NCBI GenBank assembly: GCA_947173895.1
Contig: CAMWGU010000007.1
Location: 1-64,000 of the forward strand
DNA from: an uncultured Bacteroides sp.
Lineage (GTDB): Bacteria > Bacteroidota > Bacteroidia > Bacteroidales > Bacteroidaceae
Length of the DNA stretch: 64,000 nucleotides
Direction of reading: 5' to 3'
The notes under the pieces were generated by a model. The model made no database searches. It was given only the letters and a program-made list of their open reading frames with translations, and was not told where the DNA came from. Below are positions 34,183 through 39,890 of this stretch, piece by piece. The position numbers were made by a program, and so were the translations under genes. Position 1 is the first letter of the stretch. Every line of letters starts with the position of its first letter.

Positions 34183-35484
34183 TTATTCGTTCATCAAATA
34201 ACTTTTAAAACTTTCAAAATCCTTACTCATGGAAATACTCTGCTTGATTCCTTTCATAAATTCTTGCAATTTGGCAGGAATCTCCACCTTGTCACCGACA
34301 ATACCTTCTACCGTCTCAAGGAATTTGGCAGGATGGGCCGTCTCAAGGAACACGCCCGTCTCCCCGTTCTGCAACCCTTCGGACAAAGCACGGTAACCGC
34401 ACGCTCCATGTGGATCAAGCAAATAGCCCGTCTCCTGATACACCTCTTTCACGGTTTCACGAATCTGCTCATCAGTATAAGCTGCTCCAGAGATTTCCGT
34501 CGCAATGACAGCATGACTGCCGCCATACAATGCCAACACACGGGCAAAGTTACTTGGATCACCCACATCCATCGCATTGGCAATAGTAGCAACAGAAGGG
34601 CGGGGAGCATACTTCCCAGTCTGCAAATACTGATAGAAAATATCATTCAGGTTATTGGCCGCAATGAAACGCTTGACAGGCAATCCCATGCGCTTGCCAA
34701 ACAAACCGGCTGTGATATTGCCGAAGTTTCCGCTCGGTACACATACAACCAAATTTTCTGCCTTTCCTGCCTTCTTCAACTGGGCATACGCATAGAAATA
34801 ATAAAAAGCCTGCGGAAGGAAACGGGCCACATTGATGGAATTGGCCGAAGTGAGCTTCTTGCATGCATTCAAATCAACATCCATAAACGCATTCTTGACC
34901 AATGCCTGACAATCGTCAAAAGTTCCATCCACTTCCAGAGCCGTAATATTCTGCCCCAAGGTAGTGAACTGTTTTTCCTGAATCTCGCTAACCTTTCCTT
35001 TGGGATAAAGAACATACACATGAATACCATCCACACCAAGAAAACCGTTAGCAACAGCACTGCCGGTATCTCCTGAAGTAGCAACCAGCACATTCACCTG
35101 CTTCTGCTCCTCCTTCTTGATGAAATAGCCCAACAAACGGGCCATAAAACGTGCGCCCACATCCTTGAAGGCCAATGTGGGGCCATGAAACAATTCCAAA
35201 GAGTAAATGCCTTCTTTCACCTTTACGGCAGGAACATCAAAATTCAACGTATCATATACAATCTGTTTCAATGTTTCGGCCGGAATATCCTCACCAAAAA
35301 AGGCATCGGCCACATGGTAAGCTATCTCCTGAAACGACAGATCCTCAATATGATCATAAAATTCTTTCGGCAACGGCTTAATAACCTCGGGCATATACAA
35401 CCCCTTGTCAGATGCCAGCCCCTTCACTACCGCTTCTTCTAAAGAAGCTTCGGAAGCCTGATGATTCGTACTGTAATATTTCAT
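34183..35484 (-). CDS. thrC: Threonine synthase
   Basis: 433-aa ORF; MKYYSTNHQASEASLEEAVVKGLASDKGLYMPE, PLP site FKDVGARFMARLLG, ATSGDTGSAVANGF. Confidence 0.95.
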   Translation of the reverse strand: MKYYSTNHQASEASLEEAVVKGLASDKGLYMPEVIKPLPKEFYDHIEDLSFQEIAYHVADAFFGEDIPAETLKQIVYDTLNFDVPAVKVKEGIYSLELFHGPTLAFKDVGARFMARLLGYFIKKEEQKQVNVLVATSGDTGSAVANGFLGVDGIHVYVLYPKGKVSEIQEKQFTTLGQNITALEVDGTFDDCQALVKNAFMDVDLNACKKLTSANSINVARFLPQAFYYFYAYAQLKKAGKAENLVVCVPSGNFGNITAGLFGKRMGLPVKRFIAANNLNDIFYQYLQTGKYAPRPSVATIANAMDVGDPSNFARVLALYGGSHAVIATEISGAAYTDEQIRETVKEVYQETGYLLDPHGACGYRALSEGLQNGETGVFLETAHPAKFLETVEGIVGDKVEIPAKLQEFMKGIKQSISMSKDFESFKSYLMNE

Positions 35485-35520: not shown

Positions 35521-36732
35521 TTATTCTTTCATAAATTCATTCATAAACTCATCCTCCTTCAAGATCCCATAACCTCCTTCCACGCATGCCACCTCATCAA
35601 AAGTCTGCACACCATCAGGCTCTATGCCGGGATAATAAATAAGAAAAGGCACCGGTTCTGCCGTGTGGGTACGAAGTTCGCAAGGAGTGGGATGATCAGG
35701 AAGCACGGCGATTGCCACAGGCTCGTTCCAAGTTTTCACCTCTTCATAAATAGGTCCCACGACACGCTTGTCCAAATCCTCGATGGTAAGTTGTTTCAAT
35801 TTGAAATCCCCCTCATGCCCTGCCTCGTCGCTGGCCTCAATATGCAGATACACAAAATCATCCGTTCGCAAAGCATCCAGTGCGGCATCCACCTTGTTTT
35901 CATAGTTTGTGTTATACAAACCGGTCGCCCCCTCTACAGCGATGCGACGCAATCCCGCATAATAACCAATCCCGTTAATCAGATCTACGGCCGAGATGAC
36001 AGCTCCTTTCCTGACAGATGGATACTTAGCAGACAGAAGCTCCATCTGCGGACGATACCCCGGGCTCCAAGGCCAGATACTGTTAGCCGGATCTTTGCCC
36101 TCGGCCACACGCCGCTTATTTATCGGGTGCTCGGCCAGCAATGTCTGCGACTCCATAATCAAGGAATTGATCAGGTCGGCCGTTTCTTGTGCTTCCGGCA
36201 CCTCCGCCTTCACCATCAGTGGACGGAAAGGCTGCAAAGGCACATCATGAGGCGGAGTACAGTCCAGCCGTTTGTCGCCTCCTCTTATCACCAGCAAATG
36301 GCGGTATTGCACTCCGGTGTAGAAACGGATACGATCGGACCCCAGCCTCTCATCCAGATACCTGATCAGCACATCCGCCTCGCTGGTAGTAATATGTCCG
36401 GCAGAGTGGTTCTTTATCTTGCCGTCTTCCGTGCAGATGATGTTGCAACGCATGGCCATGTCACCCGGTTGCAACTCCACCCCGATGCTGGCCGCTTCCA
36501 ACGGACCGCGTCCTTCGTACACCTTCGGCAAGTCATACCCCATGACAGACATGTTTGCCACTTCGCTGCCCGGATGAAAACCCGAGGCAACCGTTATCAG
36601 CCTTCCGGTACGTCCCATGCGGGCAAGCCGATCCATATAAGGCGTGGCAGAATATTGCAACAAGGTCTTATTACCCAACGCTCCAGCCGGCCAATCGGCC
36701 ATGCCGTCACCCAAAATAATTATATGCTTCAT
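35521..36732 (-). CDS. apgM: Cofactor-independent phosphoglycerate mutase (ApgM family); predicted functional analogue of homoserine kinase
   Basis: 403-aa ORF; MKHIIILGDGMADWP, HIEASDEAGHEGD, LPDHPTPCELRTHTAEPVPFLIY; lies between thrA and thrC. Confidence 0.88.
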   Translation of the reverse strand: MKHIIILGDGMADWPAGALGNKTLLQYSATPYMDRLARMGRTGRLITVASGFHPGSEVANMSVMGYDLPKVYEGRGPLEAASIGVELQPGDMAMRCNIICTEDGKIKNHSAGHITTSEADVLIRYLDERLGSDRIRFYTGVQYRHLLVIRGGDKRLDCTPPHDVPLQPFRPLMVKAEVPEAQETADLINSLIMESQTLLAEHPINKRRVAEGKDPANSIWPWSPGYRPQMELLSAKYPSVRKGAVISAVDLINGIGYYAGLRRIAVEGATGLYNTNYENKVDAALDALRTDDFVYLHIEASDEAGHEGDFKLKQLTIEDLDKRVVGPIYEEVKTWNEPVAIAVLPDHPTPCELRTHTAEPVPFLIYYPGIEPDGVQTFDEVACVEGGYGILKEDEFMNEFMKE

Positions 36733-36736
36733 AAAC

Positions 36737-39169
36737 CTAGATGTTTGCGATGCTCATGATGTCGGCAAATACGCCCGCGGCAGTCACGCTGGCACCAGCA
36801 CCGTATCCCTGTATCATCATGGGATATTCCTTATAGCGCTCCGTTGTAAGCAGAATAATGTTATTGCTGCCTTCCAGTCCGTAGAAGGGATGCTTACTAT
36901 CCACTTCCTGCAAGGACACACTGCCCTTTCCTTGTTCCAGTCGGGCTACAAAACGCCAACGCTTGTTCTCCCTTTCCAGTTTCTGACGGCGTGACTCAAA
37001 ATCCGCATCCAACGAAGGCACTTTCTTCCAAAAGTCCTCCAACGGGCCTTCAAAGAAATCATTCGGCACAAAAAGATGTTTTTCCACATCCTCCTGTTCC
37101 AACCTGTATCCTGCCTCACGTGCCAGAATGACCAGCTTGCGGATCACGTCCTTGCCACTCAGGTCGATACGCGGATCGGGTTCCGAATAGCGTTCTTCCT
37201 GCGCCATCTTAATGGTTCGGCTAAACGGTATGTCGGCACTGATTTTATTAAAAATATAATTTAGCGTGCCGCTCAATACCGCCTCTATCTTCAGTATCTT
37301 GTCACCGCTGTTTATCAGGTCATTGATGGTGTTGATGATAGGAAGTCCGGCACCCACGTTGGTTTCAAACAGGAACTTCACGCCGCGACGGCGGGCTATC
37401 TGCTTCAACTCGTCATAAACAGCATACTCGGAAGAAGCGGCAATCTTATTGGCAGCCACCACCGAAATGTTGTTCATTAAGAAATCTTTATATAGCGATG
37501 CCACATCCGCACTTGCAGTACAATCCACGAATACGGAATTGAAGATGTTCATGCCAATAATCTCGTCGTGCAGCACCTTGCCGGACGATGGCATTCCTTT
37601 CTCCGCCAGTGCCTCCCTATAGCCCGTCAGGTCTATTCCCTCACGGGTGAACAGCGCATGATGACCGTCGGCTATACCCACCACATTCAGCTTCAGGCCA
37701 CGCTCCTGCATCAGTTTCTGCTGCTGGCAGCGGATTTGTTCTATCAAGCTTCCGCCCACCGTGCCTATACCGCAGATAAAAAGGTTCAGCACCTGATATT
37801 CGGACAGGAAGAACGAGTCGTGAATCACATTCAGCGACTTGCGCAGCGACTTAGACTCCACCACAAAAGAGATATTGGTTTCCGAAGCACCTTGCGCACA
37901 TGCTATGACACTGATACCGTTACGTCCCAAGGTACCAAACAATTTGCCTGCAATACCCGGCGTGTGCTTCATATTCTCGCCGACAATAGCCACTGTAGCC
38001 AAATTCATCTCGGCAACTACCGGACTGATTTCGCCCATTTCTATCTCTTTAGAGAATTCCTCATTCAGCACCTCACAGGCCAAGGCCGCATCCTGATTGC
38101 GCACACCAATCGAAGTACTGTTTTCGGAAGACGCCTGCGACACCATGAACACGCTGATGCCATTTTGCGCCAATGCCTTGAAGATGCGGAAGTTCACTCC
38201 GATAACCCCCACCATACCCAAGCCGGTGACCGTAATGAGGCTGGTATCATTGATGGACGAAATTCCTTTAATGGCCTTGGAGCCTGAATCCACCTCCTGC
38301 TTGATAATGGTTCCCTCGGCATCGGGATTGAATGTATTTTTAATCAGGATAGGGATATTCTTGTGGCAGACCGGATAAATGGTGGGCGGATACACCACCT
38401 TCGCACCAAAGTTGCAAAGCTCCATTGCTTCCACATAACTCAGTTCGCTGATGGTATAAGCCGTACTGATGACACGCGGGTCGGCCGTCATAAATCCGTC
38501 CACATCCGTCCATATCTCCAGGCTGTCCGCATTCAGCGCCGCCGCTATAATAGAAGCGGTATAGTCGGACCCACCCCGTCCCAGATTGGTCACCTCGCCA
38601 CTGTTCTTATCGGTCGAGATGAAACCGGGAACCAACGCCACTTGCGGCAGTTCTTGAAAAGCCTCGTTCACCAGGCGATTGGTCAGTTCCGAATCAAGAA
38701 TGTGCTTGGCATGCTTCTTCTCTGTCTTTATGAACAGACGCGAGTCATACCACACAGCCCCTTTTATCAACGAGGCCGTGATAATGGACGACAGGCGTTC
38801 ACCATAGCTGACAATAGTAGCCGATGTCTTGGGCGACAAGTCCTTGATCAGATAAATGCCCTGAAAAATATCTTTCAACTCGCTCAACAGTTCATTGACC
38901 CTGTCCAGCAAGGCAGTTCGCCCCTCGCCTGCCGGAATAACGGTATACACCATTTCGATATGCCGGTTCACAATCTCGCGGTACTCTTTTTCGTATGCGG
39001 CATCCCCATTGGCCGCCATTTGTGAAGTATGGATCAGCTTGTCCGTGATGCCACCCAAGGCCGATACGACTACGATTACAGGCTCTTTCACCGCCTCTAC
39101 TATCTGTTTGACACTCAAAATGCTGTTCACGGATCCTACGGATGTTCCGCCGAATTTCATTACTTTCAT
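36737..39169 (-). CDS. thrA: Bifunctional aspartokinase / homoserine dehydrogenase
   Basis: 810-aa ORF; MKVMKFGGTSVGSVNSI, GRGGSDYTASIIAA, GIGTVGGSLIEQI, SGTLNYIFN, EPDPRIDLSGKDVIRKLVILARE. Confidence 0.96.
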   Translation of the reverse strand: MKVMKFGGTSVGSVNSILSVKQIVEAVKEPVIVVVSALGGITDKLIHTSQMAANGDAAYEKEYREIVNRHIEMVYTVIPAGEGRTALLDRVNELLSELKDIFQGIYLIKDLSPKTSATIVSYGERLSSIITASLIKGAVWYDSRLFIKTEKKHAKHILDSELTNRLVNEAFQELPQVALVPGFISTDKNSGEVTNLGRGGSDYTASIIAAALNADSLEIWTDVDGFMTADPRVISTAYTISELSYVEAMELCNFGAKVVYPPTIYPVCHKNIPILIKNTFNPDAEGTIIKQEVDSGSKAIKGISSINDTSLITVTGLGMVGVIGVNFRIFKALAQNGISVFMVSQASSENSTSIGVRNQDAALACEVLNEEFSKEIEMGEISPVVAEMNLATVAIVGENMKHTPGIAGKLFGTLGRNGISVIACAQGASETNISFVVESKSLRKSLNVIHDSFFLSEYQVLNLFICGIGTVGGSLIEQIRCQQQKLMQERGLKLNVVGIADGHHALFTREGIDLTGYREALAEKGMPSSGKVLHDEIIGMNIFNSVFVDCTASADVASLYKDFLMNNISVVAANKIAASSEYAVYDELKQIARRRGVKFLFETNVGAGLPIINTINDLINSGDKILKIEAVLSGTLNYIFNKISADIPFSRTIKMAQEERYSEPDPRIDLSGKDVIRKLVILAREAGYRLEQEDVEKHLFVPNDFFEGPLEDFWKKVPSLDADFESRRQKLERENKRWRFVARLEQGKGSVSLQEVDSKHPFYGLEGSNNIILLTTERYKEYPMMIQGYGAGASVTAAGVFADIMSIANI

Positions 39170-39321: not shown

Positions 39322-39359
39322 TAAAAAAATAAAAGCTTGTTTTGCTTACGTCCGTAAGC
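39322..39359 (-). terminator. Terminator/attenuator hairpin of the thr operon leader
   Basis: Minus strand GCTTACG-GA-CGTAAGC followed by AAAACAAGC and TTTTATTTTTTT, about 33 nt after the leader ORF stop and about 150 nt before thrA. Confidence 0.6.
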
Positions 39360-39391
39360 GTGTATCACGTAGAAACACCTATATACTATCC

Positions 39392-39490
39392 TTAACCCCG
39401 AGGGGTCATCATTGTAGTGGATGCGGACAGGGTAGTCATCGTTCGCCCCATCCCCGATGCAGTTGCAGTATGTAGATAGTATATCGTCAT
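39392..39490 (-). CDS. Threonine operon leader peptide (MTIYYLHTATASGMGRTMTTLSASTTMMTPRG)
   Basis: Hand-translated 32-codon minus-strand ORF with 9 Thr (and 5 Met), purine-rich RBS (AGAAGAGA), consensus -7 box upstream, terminator and thrA downstream; missing from the ORF track. Confidence 0.8.
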   Translation of the reverse strand: MTIYYLHTATASGMGRTMTTLSASTTMMTPRG

Positions 39491-39528: not shown

Positions 39529-39536
39529 CAAATATA
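39529..39536 (-). promoter_or_regulatory. -7 box of the thr operon promoter
   Basis: Minus-strand TATATTTG (TAnnTTTG), 38 nt before the leader ATG. Confidence 0.5.
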
Positions 39537-39710
39537 AAAACTATTTCCTACAATCTATTACATTTTCCCATTTTTTTGCGATAAAACAGCAGAGTTTCTC
39601 CTCCCTGCCGACTCCTGCTCATGTGACAGAAGAAAATAGAATTAAAGGTTTACGGAAGCTTCCATCGTTTTTCGAGGCCTTACACAAAGCTGATCACACC
39701 CTATAGATTT

Positions 39711-39798
39711 CTTAAAACTCCGTCGGTGTTCTTGTAAACACCGACGGAGTTTTATAGAACACCGACGGAAATCATTAGAACACCGACGGTGTTTTAAG
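39711..39798. repeat. Four-copy AACACCGACGG inverted/direct repeat array forming alternative hairpins
   Basis: Perfect 17-bp stem AAAACTCCGTCGGTGTT (39714-39730)/AACACCGACGGAGTTTT (39737-39753); further AGAACACCGACGG at 39756 and 39777; outer arms CTTAAAAC...GTTTTAAG also pair. Confidence 0.88.
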
Positions 39799-39890
39799 AA
39801 TGCAAGCAGCCGGTGAGAAGATTATGCAAGGAAGCGAAGGATTATACATCGGCCACAGGTGAAAAAGCCCAAAACTTTCATCCGCCCTTA

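Follow-up and report, generated by a model that had tools for sequence, protein, structure and literature searches.

The closest described system is the threonine attenuator of E. coli (thrL; Rfam Thr_leader, RF00506), in which a Thr-rich leader peptide is encoded directly upstream of thrA, as in the leader reported here, and in both systems the control codons correspond to what the enzyme's pathway finally makes. In the E. coli scheme, ribosome stalling frees a segment that must pair with the terminator's 5' arm. The control codons there are Thr and Ile, whereas here they are Thr and Met; E. coli uses a 2:3 antiterminator, whereas none was found here, and the present leader has no sequence, Rfam or ThrL-family match to that system. 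We know of no counterpart of the conserved stop-codon hairpin and P2 loop described below.

In the same phylum, the transcriptome of Flavobacterium psychrophilum gave strong clues for leader-peptide attenuation upstream of amino-acid biosynthesis operons, with structured 5' regions and short ORFs before the same class of genes, although neither thrA nor threonine is named in that text (PMC9723704). Flavobacteriia-like thrA leaders are Thr/Ile-rich, and the conserved core of the present element (R1, a covariance model of the hairpins H, P2 and P3) was not found in them or elsewhere outside Bacteroidaceae, apart from the few matches treated as chance below. In Bacteroides thetaiotaomicron, long 5' UTRs with short ORFs have been recorded, and the main text of that article does not mention thrA (PMC7366714). 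Brewer et al. 2021 described uORF attenuators, for example uORFC-8-2 upstream of cysS, that likewise combine conserved RNA with an embedded control-codon uORF, there before an intrinsic terminator, but they come from other phyla, have single-amino-acid specificity, and Bacteroides does not occur in the text (PMC8632094). No earlier description of the present leader was found in the main texts of the open-access literature searched, and an earlier prediction elsewhere is possible. The first-pass annotation had called such attenuators rarely annotated in the phylum; the Flavobacterium proposal shows that the idea has a precedent there (PMC9723704).

The window (the whole stretch of DNA that was analyzed, 64,000 nucleotides) carries a thrA-thrB2-thrC operon on the minus strand, with a 5' leader of about 350 nt.

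36737..39169, minus strand: thrA, bifunctional aspartate kinase/homoserine dehydrogenase I, 810 aa (NCBIfam NF006959, 1049 bits, cut-off 726)
35521..36732, minus strand: thrB2, TIGR02535 'proposed homoserine kinase' (561.8 bits, cut-off 446.3); the relocated elements described below precede a homologue of it
34183..35484, minus strand: thrC, threonine synthase (TIGR00260, 305 bits, cut-off 167)
39529..39536, minus strand: Bacteroidetes-type promoter -7 box TATATTTG, read from the sequence
39392..39490, minus strand: uORF for a leader peptide of 32 aa with 9 Thr and 4 internal Met, ending in MTPRG and the stop codon; frame conserved, Thr and Met enriched in this frame only

The box TATATTTG at 39536-39529, listed in the first-pass annotation, is present about 33 nt upstream of the uORF, and a TAnnTTTG box was detected 19-52 nt 5' of the uORF start in 77 of the 77 collected elements. 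The ribosome-binding site proposed with it was not recovered: no clear Shine-Dalgarno sequence was seen before the window uORF. Upstream of the thrA promoter, at 39701-39801, there are clustered inverted copies of CCGTCGGTGTT / AACACCGACGG; this cluster is strongly palindromic and gave only spurious miRNA-like Rfam matches.

The window uORF (39490 to 39392, minus strand) translates as MTIYYLHTATASGMGRTMTTLSASTTMMTPRG, with one Ile and with all four Thr codons in use among its nine Thr. The chance of at least 9 Thr of 31 residues at 5% each is 1.4e-5 for the window copy alone. Among 46 non-redundant uORFs, counted without the start codon and the final five codons, Thr makes up 23.0% and Met 16.1% of the in-frame codons, against 5.1 and 3.2% (Thr) and 0.8 and 0.5% (Met) in the other two frames, and all four Thr codons are again in use. 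The comparison of 23 disjoint pairs of related uORFs gave 28, 50 and 70 changes at codon positions 1, 2 and 3, the third being the commonest, and synonymous changed codons numbered 46 of 120 in frame versus 16 of 119 and 34 of 124 out of frame. At the Thr and Met sites of these pairs, synonymous Thr changes prevailed (22), followed by Thr-Met exchange (9), the commonest replacement. The third-position changes together with the Thr-Met exchange indicate that both amino acids are selected and not a nucleotide pattern; as judged from this comparison, selection acts on the uORF as a coding sequence and favors Thr and Met codons.

The uORF has 24-32 codons in Phocaeicola and 18-20 in many Bacteroides, and its length changes are in-frame. 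The N-terminal and middle codons are variable, the middle being free in sequence yet retaining Thr and Met, and the end (MTPRG, MTLRG, TTLRG or TTPRG) is dictated for the most part by the underlying RNA hairpin. Three uORFs (L050, L051, L053) have 6 Met and 0-1 Thr each, Met being the main one there; Ile accounts for 4.3% of codons in thrA-linked uORFs versus 16% for Met. Concerning the ThrL protein family, the 32-aa peptide had no NCBIfam or Pfam match at E up to 1.

Comparison across species places the uORF inside a conserved RNA fold, consisting of the long-range helix P1, the hairpins H and P2, usually P3, and a U-rich tract.

39474..39484, minus strand: P1 5' strand, codons 3-6 of the uORF, pairing with 39381-39391
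39381..39391, minus strand: P1 3' strand, directly after the stop codon, pairing with the P1 5' strand
39393..39408, minus strand: hairpin H over the last codons and the stop, UGACCC-CUCG-GGGUUA, core CCC/GGG invariant in 38 sequences
39360..39378, minus strand: hairpin P2, GUGUUUC-UACGU-GAUACAC, three pairs with two-sided changes, loop near-invariant
39344..39359, minus strand: hairpin P3, GCUUAC-GGAC-GUAAGC, four pairs with two-sided changes
39323..39334, minus strand: U-rich tract (the T-run in the window), possible termination point

The minimum free energy fold of the window leader has -52.5 kcal/mol (z -3.4), and 0 of 200 shuffles were equally good. As claimed initially, the early leader sequence ATATACTATC (39484-39475) has its exact complement after the stop, GATAGTATAT (39390-39381), and the two are paired in this fold. 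Across species, P1 joins codons 2-6 to the sequence just past the stop; its strands co-vary (CUAUC/GAUAG, CAUUAUA/UAUAAUG, ACAACUGC/GCAGUUGU), and the duplex energy is -10.9 kcal/mol for cognate strands versus -8.0 kcal/mol between species (p=8e-8). The outer pairs of H are variable, and divergent members carry GCCC/GGGC. The P2 stem changes, and the loop variants besides UACGU are UACGC, UAUGU and UGCGU. P3 (GCUUACGGACGUAAGC in the window) shows the strongest covariation of the whole element and is missing from several Bacteroides and most thrB2-linked copies.

For H, P2 and P3, 88.5% of the cells are paired and 0 of 500 shuffles reached the covariation score, a figure made generous by relatedness; slid controls gave far lower pairing. 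Unbiased column covariation recovered P3 and parts of H, missed P1 because of indels, and no alternative helix stood out in it. The search against Rfam gave no match at gathering score, with Thr_leader absent among the matches with E up to 10, and no curated RNA family matched for a T-box or a known riboswitch. The UACGU loop holds a Thr codon, and UAUGU, with a Met codon, is found in three Met-rich, Thr-poor species; the resulting T-box idea was dropped, as other Met-rich, Thr-poor members keep UACGU.

The T-run in the window begins 9 nt past the P3 stem and is not adjacent to it, and because of this distance the standard consensus terminator scan makes no call in the window. Both parts of the terminator proposed from the first reading, the hairpin (39359-39344) and the T-run (39334-39323), are present. 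In 45 species the stretch 10-25 nt past P3 has a T fraction of about 0.6 and a GC fraction of about 0.15, and in every species the hairpins lead into a U-rich, GC-poor tract, at a spacing of 0-25 nt from the last hairpin. Given this variable spacing and the loss of P3 in some members, hairpins and tract form only a putative terminator. Convergent gene ends in the window were too few for a comparison of terminator spacing. The spacer CAATCAATCA recurs in one clade (L007-L016, L058 and others), where it separates P3 from the U-run.

We propose that the Phocaeicola thrA leader is very probably a real, conserved Thr+Met leader-peptide attenuator. Ribosome-mediated control by the Thr and Met codons of this conserved leader is, in our estimate, highly probable; any particular switch mechanism is put forward with less confidence. 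The leader would be a cis-attenuator of thrA-thrB2-thrC that senses the charging of tRNA-Thr and tRNA-Met, homoserine being the source of both end products. With ample Thr and Met, the ribosome would traverse the uORF, the P2/P3 fold would be completed and RNA polymerase would stop in the U-rich tract. When Thr or Met is short, the ribosome would stall in the P1 loop, P1 and often H would be blocked, and transcription would read through into thrA.

The geometry is such that P1 is blocked whenever a ribosome occupies the early codons or the stop codon: at termination the ribosome would mask the 3' strand of P1, and if it stalled at early or middle control codons it would mask the 5' strand or lie within the loop. 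These positions suggest that P1 and H are the ribosome-dependent parts, with P2/P3 and the U-tract as the likely output, to which they would be coupled. Alternative pairings of the E. coli type, as proposed in the first-pass annotation, were not supported. The post-stop segment pairs with the early codons only (mean z -2.29, p=1.6e-10, 45 species) and matches P2/P3 and the tail less well than shuffled versions of itself do (mean z +0.39, p=0.003, 45 species). In masked folding, P3 remained intact whichever part of the uORF was masked in most species tested, and P2/P3 mostly persisted; the T-run, as noted, is not adjacent. The avoidance of P2/P3 by the post-stop segment and the survival of P3 under masking argue that the classical switch is absent, and a 2:3 antiterminator was found neither by masked folding nor by duplex energies against shuffles. 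Because no competing antiterminator helix was found, our guess is that the stalled ribosome would keep P1/H open beside P2, and not operate a 2:3 switch as in E. coli.

In several Bacteroides the 5' UTR sequence GUAGAAACA is complementary to the P2 5' arm (z -2 to -4), and GUAGAAACA-like sequence precedes the uORF in L065, L066, L073, L077 and L146-L148. This anti-P2 helix is not general, with a mean z near 0 over all species, and it is absent in Phocaeicola. The 5' UTR pairing would make P2 itself switchable in those Bacteroides.

ThrA was located in 62 Phocaeicola genomes; among the 58 thrA upstream regions read, 55 share the leader, and L026 (G041), L055 (G040) and L041 (P. coprocola; element on another contig) do not. 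The ORF was found in the same place in every collected copy of the element. The window uORF is real and the ORF is conserved in the genus, and the alignment of relatives proposed at the outset showed conservation of both the ORF and its Thr codons upstream of thrA, in these 55 of 58 regions and in other Bacteroidaceae. In P. coprocola (G006; L216 and L041), leader and thrA are on different contigs that both run into transposase-like ORFs, and an IS element seems to have split the attenuator from thrA.

R1 matches were detected in 72 of 301 Bacteroidaceae genomes, in 12 genera, with one match per genome in almost all of the matching genomes, including a single match in the genome of the window. 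The motif TTCTACGTGA has six copies in this genome, and only the thrA copy has the leader context. Outside Bacteroidaceae there were only five matches (E 8e-4 to 9e-3), which were treated as chance. Many other Bacteroidaceae genera (those named being Prevotella and allies) lack a leader, with the promoter next to thrA. Thr-rich uORFs without the R1 core precede thrA in Tannerellaceae-like genomes, Petrimonas, Barnesiella and flavobacteria, those of flavobacteria having Thr and Ile codons and few Met. No Met-rich leaders were found at metY. Two g11 thrA upstream regions (L104, L123) have uORFs ending in RMGFTPQGAR / REGFMPEGAFHC over GCCC..GGGGC hairpins, which are not Thr-rich.

In g15, g11 and g132 the R1 match is located upstream of a gene starting MKHIIILGDGMADWP and not at thrA, which is elsewhere in these genomes. 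This gene is a homologue of the TIGR02535 gene that stands second in the window operon; PMC9026213 uses the name ThrB2. According to their folds, the thrB2-linked elements keep P1, H and P2, and their uORFs read, for example, MNNCTLHTIITITGTTTTLRG, MINNTLHIITTGTGTTTTLRG and MDYISTYNTLTRLLSTTVTTVTTTTLRG. The 11 non-redundant thrB2-linked copies contain 105 Thr, 0 internal Met and 32 Ile in 342 codons, versus 301 Thr, 208 Met and 56 Ile in 1304 codons of 50 thrA-linked copies; internal Met is present in 49/50 thrA-linked and 0/11 thrB2-linked uORFs. The Fisher p values for Met (3e-23 by codon, 3e-11 by uORF) are overstated because the thrB2-linked copies represent only about two or three lineages; the ThrA tree, with weak resolution, forces at least two changes for the relocation.

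Homoserine from ThrA feeds both Thr and Met, and ThrB2-ThrC make Thr only, so the Met-codon pattern is as expected of an end-product sensor. The guess that the leader might also sense Met thus gains support from the in-frame Met enrichment, the Thr-Met exchange and the Met loss at thrB2, all read from sequence comparison. Two thrB2-linked copies per genome were observed in G756 (L224/L230) and G741 (L226/L231), with identical flanks in G756 and different flanks in G741; these may be assembly or mixed-strain effects. G068 and G087 (L118, L157, L235, L236) have a second, divergent thrA (45% identical), followed by a different homoserine-kinase-like gene and thrC, and the leader of this second operon has a Thr-rich, Met-free uORF (..TYTITTTTTP, ..STSITTTGITP).

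IlvA over the NCBIfam cut-off was not found in the genome of the window (95% complete) or in the Bacteroides genomes tested, and isoleucine in this genome may come from another route. IlvA is present in the g15 genomes G075, G121 and G149, and flavobacteria have strong but sub-cut-off matches (276-331 bits). Ile codons are more numerous in the g15 and flavobacterial leaders, the groups with IlvA matches, suggesting that leader Ile codons track IlvA presence; G008, G061 and G067 are exceptions, having IlvA yet few Ile codons.

A codon-sensing model leaves the near-invariant P2 loop without explanation, and a possible, if doubtful, alternative is that the uORF only gates folding and P2 with its UACGU loop is the effector, acting through a bound protein, small RNA or ligand or through RNA polymerase. 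Conservation within the element is highest in P2, its loop holding while the stem covaries, and it is retained where P3 is lost; the missing antiterminator and the GUAGAAACA complement in several Bacteroides, by which P2 may itself be switched, fit this alternative as well. However, no partner of P2 is known, the UTR complement is not general, and the U-rich tract always follows, as at a terminator. This tract, found behind the hairpins in all species, also speaks against translational attenuation, in which uORF translation would govern the thrA translation start or mRNA stability. The window has no proven terminator, as that explanation would allow, but P2/P3 stand some 65-210 nt before the thrA start, separated from it by sequence that is not conserved, and no conserved helix lies on the start, which makes it unlikely.

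It is highly improbable that a metabolite riboswitch overlaps a chance ORF here, although the conserved fold with its near-invariant loop, in one copy per genome upstream of one pathway, would suit one: the strong in-frame Thr/Met enrichment, the in-frame length changes and the coding selection oppose it, as do the middle of the uORF, free to vary with Thr and Met kept, and the lack of an Rfam match. Sensing of Thr alone, with the internal AUGs as extra translation starts or an RNA motif, agrees with the fixed places of some AUGs near the stop-codon hairpin. We nevertheless consider sensing of Thr alone quite unlikely: AUG stands at 0.5-0.8% in the other two frames, the last-position AUG is replaced by ACC or ACT in L049 and L047, and the thrB2-linked copies lose all internal Met though they keep P1, H and P2. 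The preferred reading is control by the ribosome through Thr and Met codons; counting against it, Met codons do not always accompany thrA, being few in flavobacterial leaders. A more novel form is proposed tentatively, as a Bacteroidaceae-specific uORF-gated switch for two end products (Thr and Met), which would work without an antiterminator, through the conserved P1-H-P2 fold with the UACGU-loop P2 hairpin as effector, and would lose its Met codons on moving to a branch-specific gene.

To our knowledge, within a literature search limited to open access, Thr+Met specificity has been described for no leader peptide. The relocation to thrB2 with the loss of Met represents a natural experiment in which the control codons follow the fate of the metabolite. 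Growth of B. thetaiotaomicron without threonine requires its TIGR02535 protein, BT2402, but complementation of an E. coli thrB mutant by this protein failed (PMC7311316). A Thr-only leader before the TIGR02535 gene provides independent evidence for a role in the threonine branch and bears on whether TIGR02535 (BT2402) is the missing homoserine kinase. Taken together, the leader offers a concrete, testable candidate for an amino-acid sensor of the aspartate pathway in gut Bacteroidaceae.
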